From NCBI GenBank assembly GCA_001829315.1, contig MIAY01000036.1, positions 62,001 to 126,000 of the forward strand: 64,000 nt of DNA. The letters run 5' to 3'. The DNA is from Spirochaetes bacterium GWE1_32_154 (lineage in GTDB: Bacteria > Spirochaetota > GWE2-31-10). Below are positions 16,842 through 63,120 of the stretch, piece after piece (the stretch's first letter is position 1; each line of letters opens with the position of its first letter). Made by a program: the position numbers and the translations under genes. Under the pieces are notes generated by a model. The model did not search any database. It was given only the letters and a program-made list of their open reading frames with translations, and was not told where the DNA came from.

Positions 16842-17777
16842 TTAAAAAAAGGACAGACAGTAAAGATGATAGAGGTAGTAAATATTAAAACATAAGCATT
16901 TTGCATCTTCCTTTGTTTCTGCAATATTTCTAAAAAAATACGCAAGAATGGCGTAGAAATAATGCCGGAATAAACCTATCATCGAGCGAGCTAAAGAGGT
17001 TACTATTCCTAACCTGTCCTTTAAAATATCCCAGGTTGTTTCTACCATTTCTCTTTTCTTTAATATTTGATGTTGTCGCTTTGTCATAATTTTTTTCATA
17101 TTATTCCTTACTGACGAAAAAATAAAAATATTATCTTTTAGAAAATCTTCAATAATTGCCTGATTCATTACATAGCCTGCATCAAATAATCCCATTCCCT
17201 GTAAGCCCGATACTATATTATCTAAAGGTTTCCTATCATCTATATTTCCAGCAGTTATACAAACATTGAGTAAATTTCCACTTAAATCGACTGTTCCATG
17301 TAATTTAAAACCATAAAACCATCCTTTAGTTGTTTTTCCCCTTTGTGCATAATTTTTTGCAACTTTATGCCTATTTATTCTCCTGTTTGAGCAAACTGGC
17401 AAAGGCGTTGAATCTCCTGCAAAAATAATAGGATGACCAGCTTTATTAAATGCCAATAAATATTGAAGCAGTAATAACAAATATGGAAGAGACTGGTTAG
17501 TGGCTTTTAGAAAGTTTTCATAATTTGGTAGCTTAGGAAAATCTTTTTTTAAATAAAAAAATGCATTTTTATAGAATGACTTTAAATCCATCTGATGATG
17601 TATAAACTTTACAACATTTAAAGTAACGACCTCTGATATCGACAACTCCTTTTTCTTTCCTCTTTTATTGGGATTCCACTTTCTTAGAAGATCAGAAAAC
17701 TCTGTTTTTTCTAAATATTTGAAAAAATCATCAACAAAAATAAACAATTCTGTAATATAATTAGTATTGTAATGCAT
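16842..17777 (-). CDS. IS982-family transposase
   Basis: A 311-residue DDE transposase of the IS982 family. Recognisable blocks are KLPNYENFLK, IFAGDSTPLPVC with the first catalytic Asp, NRRINRHKVAKNYAQRGK, GWFYGFKLHGTVD, NVCITAGNIDDRKPL with the second Asp, GLFDAGYVMN and KKREMVETTWDILK with the catalytic Glu. The length is near the family norm (about 290-300), with a slightly long C-terminus that may run into flanking DNA. A ribosome site GGAGG precedes the ATG but is buried in a 12-bp inverted repeat (17785-17796 with 17827-17838), which could damp translation of transcripts reading in from outside. The transposase looks intact. Confidence 0.87.
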   Translation of the reverse strand: MHYNTNYITELFIFVDDFFKYLEKTEFSDLLRKWNPNKRGKKKELSISEVVTLNVVKFIHHQMDLKSFYKNAFFYLKKDFPKLPNYENFLKATNQSLPYLLLLLQYLLAFNKAGHPIIFAGDSTPLPVCSNRRINRHKVAKNYAQRGKTTKGWFYGFKLHGTVDLSGNLLNVCITAGNIDDRKPLDNIVSGLQGMGLFDAGYVMNQAIIEDFLKDNIFIFSSVRNNMKKIMTKRQHQILKKREMVETTWDILKDRLGIVTSLARSMIGLFRHYFYAILAYFFRNIAETKEDAKCLCFNIYYLYHLYCLSFF

Positions 17778-17784
17778 TTTGTTG

Positions 17785-17838
17785 CCTCCTTTTTTGATGT
17801 AAGTATTCCTACAAATAATTATAATCCAAAAAAGGAGG
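17785..17838 (-). promoter_or_regulatory. Inverted repeat sequestering the transposase ribosome site
   Basis: CCTCCTTTTTTG (17785-17796) and CAAAAAAGGAGG (17827-17838) are perfect 12-bp inverted repeats. In a transcript entering the element from its outer end, the transposase Shine-Dalgarno sequence would be paired in this stem. Confidence 0.55.
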
Positions 17839-17908
17839 TTTTTAAATTCTATAATTTAACTCGAAATTCGGGTTAATAAATAGTTTTAAATAGTCCATTT
17901 TTTTATGA

Positions 17909-18027: not shown

Positions 18028-21000
18028 ATGAAATTGATGATTAAAATAATATGTATATTTCTTACCATTTCAGGATATGGACAGACAGTTACCTGGGATG
18101 GTAATACTGATTTAGATGGTGCTGATGGTGTTTCATGGAGTGATCCATTAAACTGGGATCTAAATATTGTGCCTCTTGCTACGGATGATGTTATTATCGG
18201 GGCAGGTGCTAATGTTATACAGAATGTTGTGGGCCTTACAATTAATGCATTAACGGTAACCGGGGGAACAGTTAATATTCAGAATGATACTTCCTGCACC
18301 GGTGCAATTACAATAAATGGTGGTGGTACAATTAATTTATCGGGGAATCTTTCGACTTCCGTTGCAGATCAACAGTATGCGATAAGAGTTGAAAATGGTG
18401 CACTTCATGTCAATACCTATTCGTTGTCAGCAAACAATTCATCAGGAGTATATGTTGATCCTACCGGCACTTTGACTTCCGGTCCTCTTGGTGGCACAAT
18501 TATTTCAACTCGGTCATTCAGAAATTTAGGGACTTTTAACCATGGAAATGGAACTATTATTCTCAGCGGTACTACAAATGATACATTGCCATACGCTATC
18601 AGGTCTGCAAATCCTCTGTATAATCTTACAATTAACCGTGCGATAGCAACATCACACACTGATATAGTTGATCTTCCTCTCATTGTCGAAAATGATCTTA
18701 CTAATACTAGCGGTGATCTCCGTTTAAACGGTCAGGATCTTACAATTTACGGAAATCTAATAAATTCCGATGCAATTATAGCCTCAGGTACAGAGCAAAT
18801 TGAAGTTCGAGGTAATGTAGATTTTACGGGTGGCACATTTACACCGGTGGCATCGACATTGCTCCTGACCGGGAACGCTAATACATCATTTAACCCGGTC
18901 GGGAATTCAATTTACAATATAACAATGAATAAAAATACTGATATTGAACAAGTAACATTAAACAGCGATTTTGTACTTGCAAATAACGGTACTATTTCAG
19001 CTACACAGGGAATTCTTGATATCAATAATTACAACATTACCGGAACTGCTACAGGTACTTTACTTTCAGTTGGTGCGAATGGAACGCTTGAACTTGAGGC
19101 AAATGGTCAAACTATAAATGTCGCATCGGTATCTGCAGCTGGAATGATTCGGTATGACGGCATTGCAGGGGGGACTGTATTTAATGTAAGTTATACTAAT
19201 ATTGAAGTTGCAGGAGGAGCATACACATTTGCCGGAGGAGGAAGTCTTACGGTAAATGGTGCTCTTACTGTTACATCAGGGAGTATAGCTATCGGTAATA
19301 ACGGAGTATCGGTTAGCGGAATTACTGATATTGATGGAATCCTGACAATAGGAAATCAGATGGCATTATTCACAGGCGGACTCACTGGCACAGGTTCTCT
19401 TACCGGAGGTGCAGGGGATATTGATATAAACGGTAATGCAACAATTTCTACTTTTATAGAGGGAGCTGGTAATACTAATATTGCAGGGGATTTTACCGTT
19501 ACAACTTTTACAAATGCTGGCGGGACATTAATTTTTGATGGAGCCGGGGCTATAACATCCAATGGTCAAAATCTTGGTGATATGGAGATTGCAACCGATA
19601 GAAGCCTTGGCGGTGCTTTGGATTGTGGTTCTTTAACCATTAATGCAGGAACAACTCTCAGTTCATCAGGCAATAACCTTACTGCAACCGCCTTAGTATG
19701 TAATGGAACATTCAACGCCTTAGTCGGAGGGGATATTCAGATAAATGGTGATGTTACAAACGGCGGTGCCGGTGCAAGAACTATCACAGGCGGAGTTGGA
19801 ACGTTTAATGTAACCGGCAATGTCAGTGCAGAGATATTTACTTCAGCCGGGGGGAATGTTGATATTGACGGAACTCTTACCTGTACTACTTTTAACCAGG
19901 GGGCAGGAAGTGTAAGTGTTGGTAACGCGTTTACCGTGGGAACATTTACCGATGATGTCGGAGAGCTTTTTTTAGACGGGGTTGCAGGAACTGCAATTAC
20001 TTGTGCAAATAATCTTGGAAATGTAACAATAAATGCAAACAAGACGGCAGGTTCGAATTTACAATTCGCTAACTTAACTGTTTCCGGGGGCAGTACGCTC
20101 TCAACCGGTGCAAATGCTCTTAATGTTATGGGCAATGCCTTCGGTGCTGGAGATCTGAATTGCGGTGGGGGAGTGCTTGATGTTAATGGAGATTTTACCG
20201 TTACAGGTAACACAACATTCTCCTCAGCCACTTCAAATATTGGTGGCAATTTCACTGCTACTGGTGCTACTTTTGATGCGAATGGCGGCACATTAATTTT
20301 TGATGGTGCCGGAACGATTAATGGTAACGGGAAAAATCTTGTTAAAGTTCAGATTGCAACCGATAGAAGTCTCGTCGGAGCTTTGATTTGTGAGAATCTA
20401 AATATTAATGAATCAACATTAACTACGGGAAATAATAGTTTAACAGTCAATGCCAATATTACTCAAACCGGAGCAGGTAATCTTGTTTCAGGTAATCAAC
20501 CGGTAACTGTCACTGGCAATGTTGATGTAACCACATTCACCGGCGGGGCTGGTGCGATTGATATTGGCGGTTTTATTCAGACGGGTAATTTTACCGCTTC
20601 AAGTACTACGACTACTGTTGGGGGCGATTTTACTGTTGTCGGTGTTTTTACTCACAGTGGTGCAACGGTGATATTTGATAACACAGGAGTCATAAGTCAG
20701 ACGACAATGTTTAATAATCTGACTATAACAGGCGGCACAAGAACATTAATCGGAATTTTAACTGTTGCTAATGATTTAATTATCAATGGAGTTGGGGCTG
20801 TTTTAGATGTGGTAGCAACAGCTGTTGATGTAAACCGCGATATTGATATTCAAGCAGGAAATTTAACTTCATCTGGTGCTATAACTGTTGAAAGAAATTG
20901 GAGTAATGTTGTTGGTGCTGGAGGTTTTACAGGTGCAGGCTCTACGGTTACTTTTGATACTATAACAACAGCAACAATATCCGGGGACACTACATTTAAT

Positions 21001-33384: not shown

Positions 33385-33434
33385 CTGCCTCCCTCCTGAT
33401 ATGAGTATAGTTGATAAAGAGATATTAATCTACA

Positions 33435-33484
33435 GGGCATCTTGCAGAAAATCGAGATAAAAAGAGTATTTTTGCATGAGGCTC
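33435..33484. repeat. Multi-hairpin repeat, partial copy (third hairpin only)
   Basis: GCATCTTGCAGAAAA and TTTTTGCATGAGGC flank the loop TCGAGATAAAAAGAGTA, which is conserved in other copies. The stem has three mismatches and the first two hairpins are missing. It lies about 50 bases past the stop of the BadF-type gene. Confidence 0.65.
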
Positions 33485-37551: not shown

Positions 37552-37672
37552 ATGAAATGTAGTCCCCTTGATTCTTTTTCTGAACAATCACCGCGAGGTA
37601 TTGGAGTTTATGAGAATTATTTATTCTATATATCAGATGACGGAAATAAACGGCTTAATATATATAATAATG
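37552..37672 (+). pseudogene. NHL-repeat (beta-propeller) fragment
   Basis: The text SPRGIGVYENYLFYISDDGN followed by KRLNIYNND is one NHL repeat, a blade of a beta-propeller. Upstream and downstream blades are absent; the frame then runs straight into a multi-hairpin repeat copy. It is a gene fragment cut by that repeat or by rearrangement. Confidence 0.55.
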
Positions 37673-37790
37673 ATCTCTTGCAAAAATCAAGATTACTTGC
37701 TTTTTACTGGAGCGATAAGCAATTTAATTGCGTTATGGGATACCATTTGCAAAAATTCGAGATAAAAAGAGTATTTTTGCAAATGGCTCA
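37673..37790 (+). repeat. Multi-hairpin repeat, full copy (37.7 kb)
   Basis: Begins ATCTCTTGCA and ends TGCAAATGGCTCA. Hairpin 1 is AATCAAG-ATTA-CTTGCTT (near perfect). Hairpin 2 is GCAAT-TTA-ATTGC (37719-37731). Hairpin 3 is CCATTTGCAAAAA / TTTTTGCAAATGG, perfect over 13 bp (37743-37755, 37774-37786), around the conserved loop TCGAGATAAAAAGAGTA. The frame coding LQKFEIKRVFLQ stays open through it. Confidence 0.85.
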
Positions 37791-40458: not shown

Positions 40459-40570
40459 TGAGCTTCTTGCAAAAATACTCTTTTTATCTCGATTTTTTGC
40501 AAGAAGCTACCTATAATGCGATTATATCGCATGTGGCGGAAGCGAAATCAAGTAATCTCGAATTTTTGAT
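40459..40570 (-). repeat. Multi-hairpin repeat, full copy in reverse orientation (40.5 kb)
   Basis: Hairpin 3 is AGCTTCTTGCAAAAA / TTTTTGCAAGAAGCT (40461-40475, 40494-40508), a perfect 15-bp stem. Hairpin 2 is ATGCGAT-TAT-ATCGCAT (40516-40532). Hairpin 1 (40540-40565) is less regular. On the minus strand it encodes MRYNRI-GS-LQKIEIKRVFLQEA, the same residues as the copies at 37.7 and 62.6 kb. Confidence 0.85.
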
Positions 40571-50314: not shown

Positions 50315-51367
50315 ATGAAGAAATTTTTATTCGTTTTATTGGCAATTGCCTGTATTTTTTCCTGTAAAAAGAAAGATGAAGTGCTTACCATAAAAATACC
50401 GCTTGTAACATGGGGTGGTTATGCAGCTTTATTTGCAGCAAACGGGGGTGCGAAGGCTTCAGAAGATTCATTATTTTATAAATATGGTAAATTTAAAGTC
50501 GAGTTAGTTCAGGTTGAAGACCCGTCACTTCATTTGCAGGGTTTTTCAAATGATACTTATAAAATTATATGGTCAACAATGGATATGCTTCCTCTACAGT
50601 ATGATTCGCTTAGTAAAGACCCGAGAACAACTCCTGTTGTAATCGGTGCATTTGATTATTCAGCAGGCGGAGACGGCATAATCGTACGGAATAATATTAA
50701 ATCAGCTCAAGATATGAAGGGTAAAACTGCTGTGGTTCCGCAATATCAACCATCCCATTACTTCTTTTTAAAATATCTTAATACCAATGGTATTGATTTT
50801 AAAGATGTTAAAATCATTTATGCAGAAGATGCAATAAAGGCAAAAGATACATTTATCAATGACTCATCAATAGATATTTGTGTTACCTGGTCACCTTTTA
50901 TTTATGATATAACCGATTCAACCAAATCAACGTATGTCGCAGGTTCTTCGTTATTAGAAACAACCGCACCGGGTTCTGCCTTGCATGGTGCAATTGCCGA
51001 TGTGTATGTAGCTCGAGGTGACCTTGTTAAAGATCATCCTGAAATAATCGCAGCTTTTACAAAAGCAATGATTGAAGGATATGAATTATTTAAGACGAAT
51101 AGAGAAAAAACAGCTCATGATATTGCATCATTATTCGGGATTCCCGGTGGAGCAGCAGAAGTTGAATTGATGTTTGGCGATGTTGTCATTTGTGGTAAAG
51201 AAGAAAACAAAATGTTTTTTGATAAAGAATATCAGTTTTCATCATACAATATTTTTAATTCATCAGCAGAGTTGTATACAATTGACGGAAAATTGGACGC
51301 CGGTTTTAATGTTACGCCTGAGATGGTTATTGAACCGAAGTTTATGATGGAACAAATTAATAAATAG
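50315..51367 (+). CDS. ABC substrate-binding lipoprotein (NMT1/SsuA-like)
   Basis: A 350-residue lipoprotein (signal LLAIACIFSC, lipid Cys17). The mature part is a periplasmic binding fold of the nitrate/sulfonate/thiamine-precursor (NMT1/SsuA) class: IPLVTWGGYAALFAANGG, IIWSTMDMLPLQY, DGIIVRNNIKSAQDMKGK, ICVTWSPFIYDI, VKDHPEIIAAFTKAMIEG. It is the first gene of a seven-gene operon and a paralogue of the next gene's binding domain. Substrate unknown; the permease and ATPase genes follow. Confidence 0.85.
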   Translation: MKKFLFVLLAIACIFSCKKKDEVLTIKIPLVTWGGYAALFAANGGAKASEDSLFYKYGKFKVELVQVEDPSLHLQGFSNDTYKIIWSTMDMLPLQYDSLSKDPRTTPVVIGAFDYSAGGDGIIVRNNIKSAQDMKGKTAVVPQYQPSHYFFLKYLNTNGIDFKDVKIIYAEDAIKAKDTFINDSSIDICVTWSPFIYDITDSTKSTYVAGSSLLETTAPGSALHGAIADVYVARGDLVKDHPEIIAAFTKAMIEGYELFKTNREKTAHDIASLFGIPGGAAEVELMFGDVVICGKEENKMFFDKEYQFSSYNIFNSSAELYTIDGKLDAGFNVTPEMVIEPKFMMEQINK

Positions 51368-51382
51368 TAAAAGGAATATTCT

Positions 51383-53056
51383 ATGGATGGAAAAAAAATA
51401 GCCGGGTTACTGGTTTTATTAGTAATTATCGGGGGCGGTGTTTTTGTAAAATTTAAAATGGATAAAGATAAAAATGTATCTGCTAATACAGGTGCTTTAG
51501 ATGTTGCGTATACTTCAAAACCGGATGATATTAAAATTACCGGAGGAAGCGGATATAAATTAGGCACTATCACTCTTGATGGTGAAATAATTCCTCTTAT
51601 TAAAATACCGCTTGTTACATGGGGCGGGTATGCTGGTTTATTTGCTGCTAATAATGGTATAAAACCAAATAAAGAATCACTTTTTTATAAAAACGGTAAG
51701 TTTGTTGTCGAACTTGTCCGGGATGAGAACTCCAATAATCATTTACAAAATTATGTTAATGGAAATTATCCATTAATCTGGTCAACTATGGATATGATGC
51801 CGCTTTTATATAATTCACTCAAAGCGGATAAACGATTAATGCCTCAGGTTCTCGGCCTTTTTGACTGGTCTTTCGGAGGTGACGGGATAGTTGTCCGGGG
51901 AAATATCAATACGCCAAAAGATTTAAAAGGAAAACGGATTGTCACTTCAGGTAATACACCGTCAAATTTCTTTTTGCTATGGCTTTTAGCTCAATCTGAT
52001 ATTAAACCGAGTGAAGTAATTATTCAATATGTAAAAGATGCGGTTGAAGCAAAAGTTGCGTTTGAAAAAGACAAACGGATTGATGCCTGTGTAAGCTGGT
52101 CACCTTTTATTTATGAACTGACTGATTCTTCTTCAAAATCATTTGTGGATGGTGCAAAATTACTTATTACTTCAAAAGATGCCAACCAGTTAATTGCAGA
52201 CTGTTATCTGGTACGAAGTGATTTTGTTAAAGAAAAACCTGAAATTGTTGAGGCTTTTGTCAAATCAATGATGGAGGGGGCTGATCTGTTACCGAAAGTG
52301 AAAGAATCAGTATTTGCCCAAATGGCGACATTGTTTGAACTTCCCGGCGGTGCAAATGAAGCCTCACTCATGCTTGGTGATGTTCACATTGCAAATTTTC
52401 CTGAAAACCAGATGTTTTTTGATCTGGAAAACTCTATAAGTGCCTATAAAATATTCTTTTTATCGCAGGAATATTATAAAAATTTAGGTTCACTTGGAAC
52501 TGATGTTGACTATGATGCAGAATACATCATTAATAAATCATTTTTAACAAAATTCAAAGAAGCTGGAATGTTTGCAAATCAGCAGAATATGATTAGAAAC
52601 TCATTTAATAAAGGTGGAGCTTTTAATATCGGGGACTTAGAGTCAAGCAGAGTAGTTCTCGCTGATGATTTACAAATAAATTTTGAGTCGCAAAAAATCG
52701 AATTTGATATCAATTCTTCTAAACCTGAAATGAAAATAAACCGTGATTTACTGACAAGAGTTTCTGAACAGATGAATGTTCTTGGAACAACAGTTGTGAA
52801 ATTAATCGGTCATCTTGATACATCAAAAGTTGAAGAGTTTAAAGCACAGGGGATGCAGAGTTTTCTTGAAGCCTCAGCACTTGCAAAATTGAATTCTAAA
52901 AAAAGAGCTGAATATGTTAAAAAAATTCTGATTGAAGCTTATGGCTGCGACAAAGATAGAATTATAACGGAAGGAAAAGGCTGGGATATGCCGGTTGATC
53001 CGACAGATCAAACAAAAAACCGTAGAGTTGAAGTGAAATTTTTCTCTCTGGAGTAA
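51383..53056 (+). CDS. Substrate-binding domain fused to OmpA peptidoglycan-binding domain
   Basis: A 557-residue protein with one N-terminal membrane helix (IAGLLVLLVIIGGGVFVKF) and no lipobox. Residues about 70-395 are a binding domain paralogous to the previous gene (IPLVTWGGYAGLFAANNG, LIWSTMDMMPLLYN, DGIVVRGNINTPKDLKGK). Residues about 430-557 are an OmpA-like domain (INFESQKIEFDINSSKPEM, KLIGHLDTSKVEEF, NSKKRAEYVKKILIEA, DPTDQTKNRRVEVKF). The pieces imply an inner-membrane-tethered sensor or transporter receptor fixed to peptidoglycan. Such fusions are rare and occur with TelA-type genes. It starts 16 bases after the previous gene and ends two bases before the permease gene. Confidence 0.87.
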   Translation: MDGKKIAGLLVLLVIIGGGVFVKFKMDKDKNVSANTGALDVAYTSKPDDIKITGGSGYKLGTITLDGEIIPLIKIPLVTWGGYAGLFAANNGIKPNKESLFYKNGKFVVELVRDENSNNHLQNYVNGNYPLIWSTMDMMPLLYNSLKADKRLMPQVLGLFDWSFGGDGIVVRGNINTPKDLKGKRIVTSGNTPSNFFLLWLLAQSDIKPSEVIIQYVKDAVEAKVAFEKDKRIDACVSWSPFIYELTDSSSKSFVDGAKLLITSKDANQLIADCYLVRSDFVKEKPEIVEAFVKSMMEGADLLPKVKESVFAQMATLFELPGGANEASLMLGDVHIANFPENQMFFDLENSISAYKIFFLSQEYYKNLGSLGTDVDYDAEYIINKSFLTKFKEAGMFANQQNMIRNSFNKGGAFNIGDLESSRVVLADDLQINFESQKIEFDINSSKPEMKINRDLLTRVSEQMNVLGTTVVKLIGHLDTSKVEEFKAQGMQSFLEASALAKLNSKKRAEYVKKILIEAYGCDKDRIITEGKGWDMPVDPTDQTKNRRVEVKFFSLE

Positions 53057-60702: not shown

Positions 60703-63120
60703 GTGGAAAAGAATATGTATAAAGACATACTTCTAAAATCAAATTTAGGTTATGCAAATCATAAAATAATTCTTGATGAAAATAATGTTCCATGTGATTA
60801 TCTCTTCTTAGAAGTTAATAGTGCATTTGAAAAATTAACCGGTTTGGTTGGCAACAATATTGTCGGTAAATTAGTAACTGAAGTAATTCCCGACATAAAA
60901 CAATCACAATTTGACTGGATAGCATATTATGGTGAAGTAGCACAAAATTCCGGTGAGAAAGAATTTGAACAATATTTTGATGTACTGAAAAAGTGGTATA
61001 AAGTTCATGTTTTCTCGCAAAAGAATAATGAATTTATTACAATCTTCACGGATATAACAAAAGAAATGGAAGCATATACCGAACTTGAAAGGTTTTTTTC
61101 AGTAAATCTTGACCTTTTATGTATAGCAGATATGCAGGGTAATTTTATTAAGGTGAATAATTCCTGGAAAGAAACGCTTGGGTATTCACAGGAATATTTA
61201 TTACATAAGAAATTTCTTGATTTTGTTCATCCTGATGATTTGCAAAGTACGCTGGATGCAATTTCTACTTTATCATCGGGAGATAATGTTTTAGATTTTA
61301 CCAACCGTTATCAATGTCAGGATGGAACTTATAAATATATTGAGTGGCGTTCCCACCCGTATGGGAATTTTATTTATGCAGCAGCACGAGATGTAACTCT
61401 CCAGAAAAATATAGAATTTGAATTACGGGATGCTAAAAAAAAGGCGGAATCGGCAAGTCTTGCCAAAAGCAGTTTTCTTGCGAATATGTCACATGAGATA
61501 CGAACTCCGCTCAATGGGGTTATTGGTTTTACTGATCTGTTACTTAAGACTAAGCTCGATGAACTTCAAAGTCAGTATATGCAAAATATCAATAGTTCTG
61601 CCCGAATTCTTATGGATTTGATTAATGATATTCTTGATTTTTCTAAAATTGAAGCAGGAAAACTTGAGCTTGATTTAGATCGGGTTGATATTATAAGTTT
61701 AGCTGAAAAATCAATTGAGGTGGTACAATATTCAGCACACAGTAAAGGACTTGAATTACTTATTGATATAGATCCACGAGTTCCCCGATTTGCTGTTGTC
61801 GATTCTGTTCGTTTAAAACAGGTAATTATTAATATACTGGGGAATGCTGTTAAGTTTTCTGAAAAGGGTGAAGTGAAGTTACTTTTAGAGTATGAAAAAT
61901 CGATTCTTGAAGGATGCGGTATTTTTAAGTTTTCAATTAGCGACACAGGTATCGGCATTTCTATAGAAAATCAGAAAAAACTATTTCAGGCTTTTTCACA
62001 AGCTGATATGTCAACAACCAGAAAATATGGCGGTACAGGGCTTGGTTTAATAATATCAAATAAATTATTAGAAAAAATGAATTCATGGTTGGATATTGAA
62101 AGTTGTGTCAATGTCGGTTCTAAATTTTCTTTTGCAATTGAAACTAAATCAGAACCCGGTGTTGAAGAAATTGGTTCGCTTGAAGGTATAAAACGGGTAT
62201 TAATCGTTGATGATAATTTGAATAATAGAATAATTCTTCAGAAAATGCTGCATTATAAAAATATTGAATCAGATTGCTGTGAGAGCGGGAGTGACGCTTT
62301 AAAGAAGTTGAAAAGTGATAATTGTTATTCAGTCGTAATCATGGATTACAATATGCCATATATGGATGGATTGGAAACAATTAAAGTTATTAGAACTGAA
62401 TTGAATTTAGATTCTCAACCAATTATTTTGTTATACAGTTCTTCAGAAGATAGTTATATTTATAGCGAATGTTTAAAGTATGGTGTTAATGCCCGTTTGA
62501 TGAAACCGGTGAAAATGTCAGATTTTTATGATACATTATCTAAATTAAGTTTAAATAACGGCAAAATTGAAAGTATAGAGAGGCTCTTGCATAAATCAAG
62601 ATTACTTGATTTATGCTTCCGCCATATGCGATATAATCGCATTAGAGGTAGCCTCATACAAAAATTCGAGATAAAAAAAGTATTTTTGCAAGAGGCTCTA
62701 GAGAAAAATAAAAAAACAATACAATGTGCTTATGTTTCTTTTCCTGATAAACGTACTATTCTTGTTGCTGAAGATAATAAGTTGAATATGACCCTCGCTG
62801 TTGCTAACGTCAATTCTTTATTTCCAAATGCGACAATTATTGAAGCTATAAATGGTGAAGACGCTGTTATTTTGTATAAAAAATATAATCCTGACATTAT
62901 TTTAATGGATTGTCAGATGCCGAAAAAAGACGGGTATGAGGCAACAAAGGAAATAAGAGAAATCGAGAAAATACATAAGAAAAAGTGTACGATAATTGCA
63001 CTTACTGCAGGTGCCGTTAAAGGTGAAAAAGAAAAATGTTTTCAATCCGGGATGGATGATTATCTTACTAAACCATTAGATTATGATGTTTTCTGTACAA
63101 TTTTAAAAAAATATAAATGA
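60703..63120 (+). CDS. Hybrid histidine kinase with two receivers, carrying an in-frame repeat
   Basis: An 805-residue cytoplasmic hybrid kinase starting with GTG. Two PAS domains (about 10-120 and 125-245), then HisKA (about 255-320; phospho-His264 in NMSHEIRTPLNG), HATPase (about 365-485; N-box NILGNAVKF, DTGIGI, GGTGLGLIIS), REC1 (about 500-620; phospho-Asp548 in VVIMDYNMP), an inserted stretch of about 41 residues encoded by a multi-hairpin repeat (about 626-666), and REC2 (about 683-803; Asp736 in IILMDCQMP, LTAGA and TKPLDY). No membrane segment is present, so it senses an internal signal. The following HPt protein completes the relay. The insertion falls in the linker between receivers, where it should be tolerated. 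Confidence 0.92.
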   Translation: MEKNMYKDILLKSNLGYANHKIILDENNVPCDYLFLEVNSAFEKLTGLVGNNIVGKLVTEVIPDIKQSQFDWIAYYGEVAQNSGEKEFEQYFDVLKKWYKVHVFSQKNNEFITIFTDITKEMEAYTELERFFSVNLDLLCIADMQGNFIKVNNSWKETLGYSQEYLLHKKFLDFVHPDDLQSTLDAISTLSSGDNVLDFTNRYQCQDGTYKYIEWRSHPYGNFIYAAARDVTLQKNIEFELRDAKKKAESASLAKSSFLANMSHEIRTPLNGVIGFTDLLLKTKLDELQSQYMQNINSSARILMDLINDILDFSKIEAGKLELDLDRVDIISLAEKSIEVVQYSAHSKGLELLIDIDPRVPRFAVVDSVRLKQVIINILGNAVKFSEKGEVKLLLEYEKSILEGCGIFKFSISDTGIGISIENQKKLFQAFSQADMSTTRKYGGTGLGLIISNKLLEKMNSWLDIESCVNVGSKFSFAIETKSEPGVEEIGSLEGIKRVLIVDDNLNNRIILQKMLHYKNIESDCCESGSDALKKLKSDNCYSVVIMDYNMPYMDGLETIKVIRTELNLDSQPIILLYSSSEDSYIYSECLKYGVNARLMKPVKMSDFYDTLSKLSLNNGKIESIERLLHKSRLLDLCFRHMRYNRIRGSLIQKFEIKKVFLQEALEKNKKTIQCAYVSFPDKRTILVAEDNKLNMTLAVANVNSLFPNATIIEAINGEDAVILYKKYNPDIILMDCQMPKKDGYEATKEIREIEKIHKKKCTIIALTAGAVKGEKEKCFQSGMDDYLTKPLDYDVFCTILKKYK
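62578..62698 (+). repeat. Multi-hairpin repeat inserted in frame in the kinase gene
   Basis: Ends AGAGGCTCTTGCA and TGCAAGAGGCTCT are inverted repeats (12 of 13). Hairpin 1 is a perfect 12-bp stem GCATAAATCAAG-ATTA-CTTGATTTATGC (62589-62616). Hairpin 2 is ATGCGAT-ATA-ATCGCAT (62626-62642). Hairpin 3 pairs 62651-62665 with 62682-62696 (two mismatches). Flanking TA on each side (62576-62577, 62699-62700) could be a target duplication; 121 + 2 bases = 41 codons, which keeps the frame. Confidence 0.88.

Follow-up and report, generated by a model that had tools for sequence, protein, structure and literature searches.

A copy of a MITE-like palindromic repeat inserted in frame between two receiver domains of a hybrid histidine kinase

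The Rickettsia palindromic elements (RPEs) occupy in-frame sites within protein genes (Ogata et al. 2000, 2002, summarised in PMC10969869 and PMC2229807), and nearly half of those in Rickettsia conorii are located in ORFs (PMC10969869). In-frame intragenic fusions have also been described for the 107-bp Correia element of Neisseria, the 127-bp ERIC and the Yersinia YPAL (reviewed in PMC2229807 and PMC10969869). The QMITE1 and QMITE2 elements of Coxiella are MITEs of a single species, and in some cases they lengthen an ORF or enter it in frame (PMC5896051). Here we describe a palindromic repeat of Spirochaetes bacterium GWE1_32_154, of which one copy is located in a kinase gene. All positions refer to the window, i.e. 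the whole stretch of 64,000 nucleotides that was analysed, unless a locus handle is given.

The kinase gene and its insert

The gene at 60703-63120 (+) encodes a hybrid sensor histidine kinase of 805 aa with PAS, HisKA, HATPase_c and two receiver domains. The Pfam model Response_reg matches two stretches of the protein, and the insert lies between receiver domain 1 (62191-62538, +, approximate limits) and receiver domain 2 (62758-63102, +, Pfam residues 686-800). The insert is a 119-bp MITE-like repeat copy (62580-62698, +) flanked by the left and right copies of the target duplication (TSD) TAGA at 62576-62579 and 62699-62702, respectively, which are identified from the sequence and from the TSD statistics given below. 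The repeat and its 4-bp duplication together add 123 bp, exactly 41 codons, without a stop, and hence the reading frame survives the insertion; the added residues are aa 627-667, RLLHKSRLLDLCFRHMRYNRIRGSLIQKFEIKKVFLQEAL plus E. The preliminary description of this locus proposed that about 41 codons had been added in frame between the receivers of an unbroken gene, and the length of the addition, the continuous ORF and the duplication on both sides confirm it. Our data thus support a gene-preserving, in-frame insertion by a mobile palindromic repeat.

The repeat family

The aligned copies of the family have the common ends GAGGCTCTTGCAAAAAT...ATTTTTGCAAGAGSCTC, the end sequence also being given as GAGGCTCTTGCAAAA. 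The kinase copy carries the left terminal inverted repeat (TIR) GAGGCTCTTGCATAAAT at 62580-62596 (+), for which the family consensus is GAGGCTCTTGCAAAAAT, and the right one, ATTTTTGCAAGAGGCTC, at 62682-62698 (-). The repeat folds into three hairpins, with z of -5.1 as RNA and -7.8 as DNA. In the kinase copy these are hairpin 1 (GCATAAATCAAG / CTTGATTTATGC, 62589-62616, +, from sequence and folding), hairpin 2 (ATGCGAT / ATCGCAT, 62626-62642, +) and hairpin 3 (62650-62697, +, with arms 62650-62665 and 62682-62697). Paired changes on both sides of hairpin 2 were observed at two pairs, in 19 and 22 of 56 copies, respectively; they form essentially two haplotypes, so that few events may underlie them. 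In the copy L027 (C11:104179-104304) the left arm is rewritten into a perfect complement of the inner arm (TTGCGGGAGCAAAAATC / GATTTTTGCTCCCGCAA), which a template switch within the hairpin would produce.

We collected copies by searches and from about 860 kb of stretches, which is a partial census. The right arm, allowing at most 3 mismatches, has 148 matches in the genome while its reversed control has none, and a 19-base end pattern has 343 matches with none for the control. Extrapolation from 783 kb of contiguous sequence gives an estimate of about 185 elements for the genome of 4.03 Mb. A perfect 4-bp duplication flanks 60 of 92 copies, where 2.8 would be expected with shuffled flanks, and 103 of 154 copies in the full set. 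The duplications are AT-rich with a weak tendency to TATA.

The copy lengths cluster at 49-51, 118-120, 138-139 and ~150-210 bp. The modal full-length size is 119 bp (31 of 54 copies), with 117, 118 and 120 bp also frequent. A 50-bp single-hairpin form with 4-bp duplications of its own is common in the genome (L139, L136, L102 and L100), and this form plus its duplication makes 54 bp, or 18 codons. Longer versions of 180-237 bp (L105:880-1090, L127:8249-8453 and L133:18313-18484) have an inner block of about TTCGGGGTACCGAAAACTGTACCTGGTCG...GCTCGGGCATGCAACC that is missing from the 119-bp form, and the longer form of the element may be ancestral to the 119-bp form. Elsewhere in the window we found a diverged copy (37670-37789, +), a copy with a diverged left end (40460-40566, -) and a short copy of ~51 bp with a single hairpin and no convincing TSD (33433-33484, +). 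The window also has unrelated direct repeats of 71-74% identity, at 19518-19653 / 20283-20418 and 50819-50919 / 52028-52128.

Being short and multicopy, with terminal inverted repeats, a fixed 4-bp TSD and no transposase gene, the repeat is a MITE, and it represents a previously undescribed family of an already known type. Its ends and duplications suggest mobilisation by a transposase that would act on the 17-bp inverted ends and cut with a 4-bp stagger. No autonomous element with the ends of the repeat was found through PF01609, PF13751 and PF13701 searches, the latter two profiles having no match in the genome. Pairs of TIRs with a TSD enclosing an ORF gave nothing convincing in the DNA examined. 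The sole PF01609 match of the genome is an IS982-like DDE transposase ORF in the window (16844-17855, -), which we rejected as the mobiliser since no repeat-like ends were found around it. Rfam gave nothing significant for the repeat, and a literature text search with the end repeat and the right arm gave no match.

The repeat is known so far from one genome. No comparable element was found in the 40 relatives searched, nor among the plasmids, phages and viral contigs searched, and 391 other genomes sampled from the phylum gave short fragments only. A perfect 17-base left end without a right partner (L234, C450:2343-2370) occurs in one genome, G001, of a different genus in the same family; it is either a remnant or a related element.

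Genic copies and the origin of the kinase insert

The copies avoid genes. Sixteen of 120 confident copies (~13%) lie within called genes compared with 89% of random positions, and ORFs of at least 200 aa hold 16 of 126 sites compared with 84% of random positions, many of these sites falling at the extreme end of the ORF. The gene limits were set by a simple ORF finder trained on this genome. Among kinds of intergenic space the copies show no preference, the proportions matching the null. In L125:3799-3917 a paralogous hybrid kinase has its TAG stop within the TAGA duplication of another element copy.

We examined the fate of the ORF for the 15 copies that lie at least 5 codons from the ORF start and at least 15 from its end. 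The frame is open in five of them, or ~4% of the 126 copies, and broken in ten, where some of the broken cases near a start may reflect wrong starts. Further copies inside genes, which the preliminary description suggested as a check, thus do include protein-compatible ones: at the FAD-binding domain of a ferric-reductase-like oxidoreductase (L004), in the ATPase domain of a second histidine kinase (L172) and in the signal peptide of a 7TMR-DISM cyclase (L002), while L119 is an open 50-bp copy near the ORF start. The three deepest insertions, i.e. the kinase, L004 and L172, are all open. The ORFs broken by a frameshift or stop include acetyltransferase-, methyltransferase-, AraC-type regulator- and serine acetyltransferase-like genes, as judged by reading their sequences.

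Two of the six frames of the repeat consensus are open. Of 54 full-length copies, 10 have no stop in the frame that is read in the kinase, and 31 have none in the best frame, the reverse frame r2. When each copy is counted in all six frames, 12% of the cases combine an in-phase length with the absence of stops; the chance that a randomly inserted full-length copy is in frame and free of stops is about 12%, rising to about 25% when the count is restricted to in-phase 119-bp copies. It was previously suggested that residues shared among copies reflect one kept open frame. The peptide LQKFEIKRVFLQ does recur, but it does so because the DNA of the right arm is conserved and not through a protected reading frame, and the small share of copies open in the kinase frame speaks against the suggestion. 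Four consensus stops are absent from L172; we rejected selection for an open frame there, since members of its subfamily located between genes, L028 among them, have this frame open as well.

The kinase copy and three others form a subfamily with GCATAAATCAAGATTACTTGATTTATGC in common and 97-98% similarity. Three of the four copies are read through in ORFs (the kinase, the ferric-reductase-like gene and the cyclase signal peptide), and the fourth, C34:515, is intergenic. Recent copies in genes and old ones between genes are what random insertion followed by purging predicts, four copies being a small sample. The kinase copy appears to be young and to have been inserted precisely.

We propose that a non-autonomous, transposase-mobilised MITE copy entered the hybrid histidine kinase gene at TAGA, and that the protein would have gained 41 residues in its inter-receiver linker as the entered frame was stop-free. 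The element would insert genome-wide regardless of frame, and selection would then clear most of the genic copies, the few in-frame ones being survivors, some of them young. We hold this whole account, i.e. a MITE insertion tolerated in frame, with random insertion and purging of harmful copies, to be very probable.

The alternatives concern both the kinase and the repeat. The insert is missing from all seven aligned kinase homologues. The linker from the KP motif of receiver 1 to the start of receiver 2 has 82 aa here versus 35-42 aa in the four homologues with a measurable linker, which come from Mucilaginibacter, two Lunatimonas genomes and one Bacteroidales genome. In the alignment, two phylum relatives and the paralogue in the same genome likewise have a gap at the insert; one of them (L032) aligns there over a short stretch. 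Comparison with insert-free orthologous kinases was proposed in the preliminary description, and these homologues bear the insertion out. The homologues do differ among themselves in linker length, as they might if the insert were a long-standing linker merely resembling the repeat, but this reading has practically no probability left: it is refuted by copies up to 98% identical to the insert elsewhere in the genome, found by a genome search, by the TSD and by homologues that are ~41 aa shorter. We predicted the structure of kinase residues 236-805 using AlphaFold2 with the seven homologues (mean pLDDT 77.9). The pLDDT is 31-48 in the insert region and mostly 82-95 in the flanking receiver domains, which is compatible with a disordered linker extension, the model being silent on function. 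The insert is probably a tolerated, unstructured extension of the linker. A site between two receiver domains could influence phosphotransfer, and the kinase is otherwise complete with an Hpt gene next after it, so one might speculate that the insert has been exapted and adaptively alters signalling between the two receivers. We find this highly improbable, given that the copy is apparently young with no conservation evidence, that the insert is predicted to be unstructured and that linkers tolerate changes in length. It is also unlikely, although less so, that the read-through is inconsequential because the kinase is non-functional or unexpressed: a paralogue encoded in the genome shares 54% identity across the kinase core, but the 805-aa protein has every domain and the motifs SHEIRTP, DTGIGI and GGTGLGL intact.

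The remaining alternative is that the element has been selected as protein-compatible, its length and sequence maintaining an open frame that allows it to reside in genes, as proposed for RPEs; selection of this kind was also suggested in the preliminary description. The modal 119 bp with its 4-bp TSD is divisible by three (31 of 54 full-length copies), the 50-bp form with its TSD is also a multiple of three, and three open deepest insertions would arise by chance with a probability of ~0.016 at 0.25 each. Most copies are extragenic, however, ten of the 15 examined ORF insertions are broken, lengths of 117, 118 and 120 bp occur commonly, and the kinase frame is open in only 10 of 54 copies. 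Survivorship explains the deep open cases. Our data run against the suggestion, and we consider such selection very unlikely; it is not required, as the loss of harmful copies after insertion suffices. Similarly, we regard it as very doubtful that the 119-bp and 50-bp forms have been moulded towards frequent protein compatibility of new insertions and that the insert in the kinase has become part of the phosphorelay linker.

Comparison with described elements

The preliminary description drew a parallel with the Rickettsia elements, which holds in part. Compared by description, the repeat is like RPEs in being palindromic, ~100-150 bp long and found in frame in protein genes, where it preserves the gene in the kinase. 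Unlike RPEs, it has ~13% of its copies in genes and ~4% in an intact frame, versus nearly half in ORFs in R. conorii. Two hallmarks of RPEs are thus missing here: a common in-frame genic location (5 of 126 copies are open) and an open frame conserved among copies. The case shows that an in-frame repeat within a protein need not imply selection for protein compatibility. With the repeat, the known MITEs gain a high-copy family whose 4-bp duplications are clean and whose genic copies form a graded series (open, broken and at gene ends), and this natural sample can be used to measure how frequently random small insertions keep a protein readable.

The REP/BIME elements with their RAYT transposases are likewise palindromic, intergenic and high in copy number, but the inverted ends and target duplication of the repeat argue against its membership in that group. 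QMITE1 and QMITE2 resemble the repeat as MITEs that are sometimes in frame in ORFs, while they are larger (150-400 bp) and have different ends and duplications. Like Correia, ERIC and YPAL, the repeat is small and mostly intergenic, with inverted ends, target duplication, hairpins and some in-frame fusions; unlike them, it has 17-bp ends and a 4-bp AT-rich duplication rather than TA-type termini, and a sequence of its own. Overall, the repeat behaves like the MITEs with in-frame fusions, and the insertion in the kinase gene is an already described type of event.
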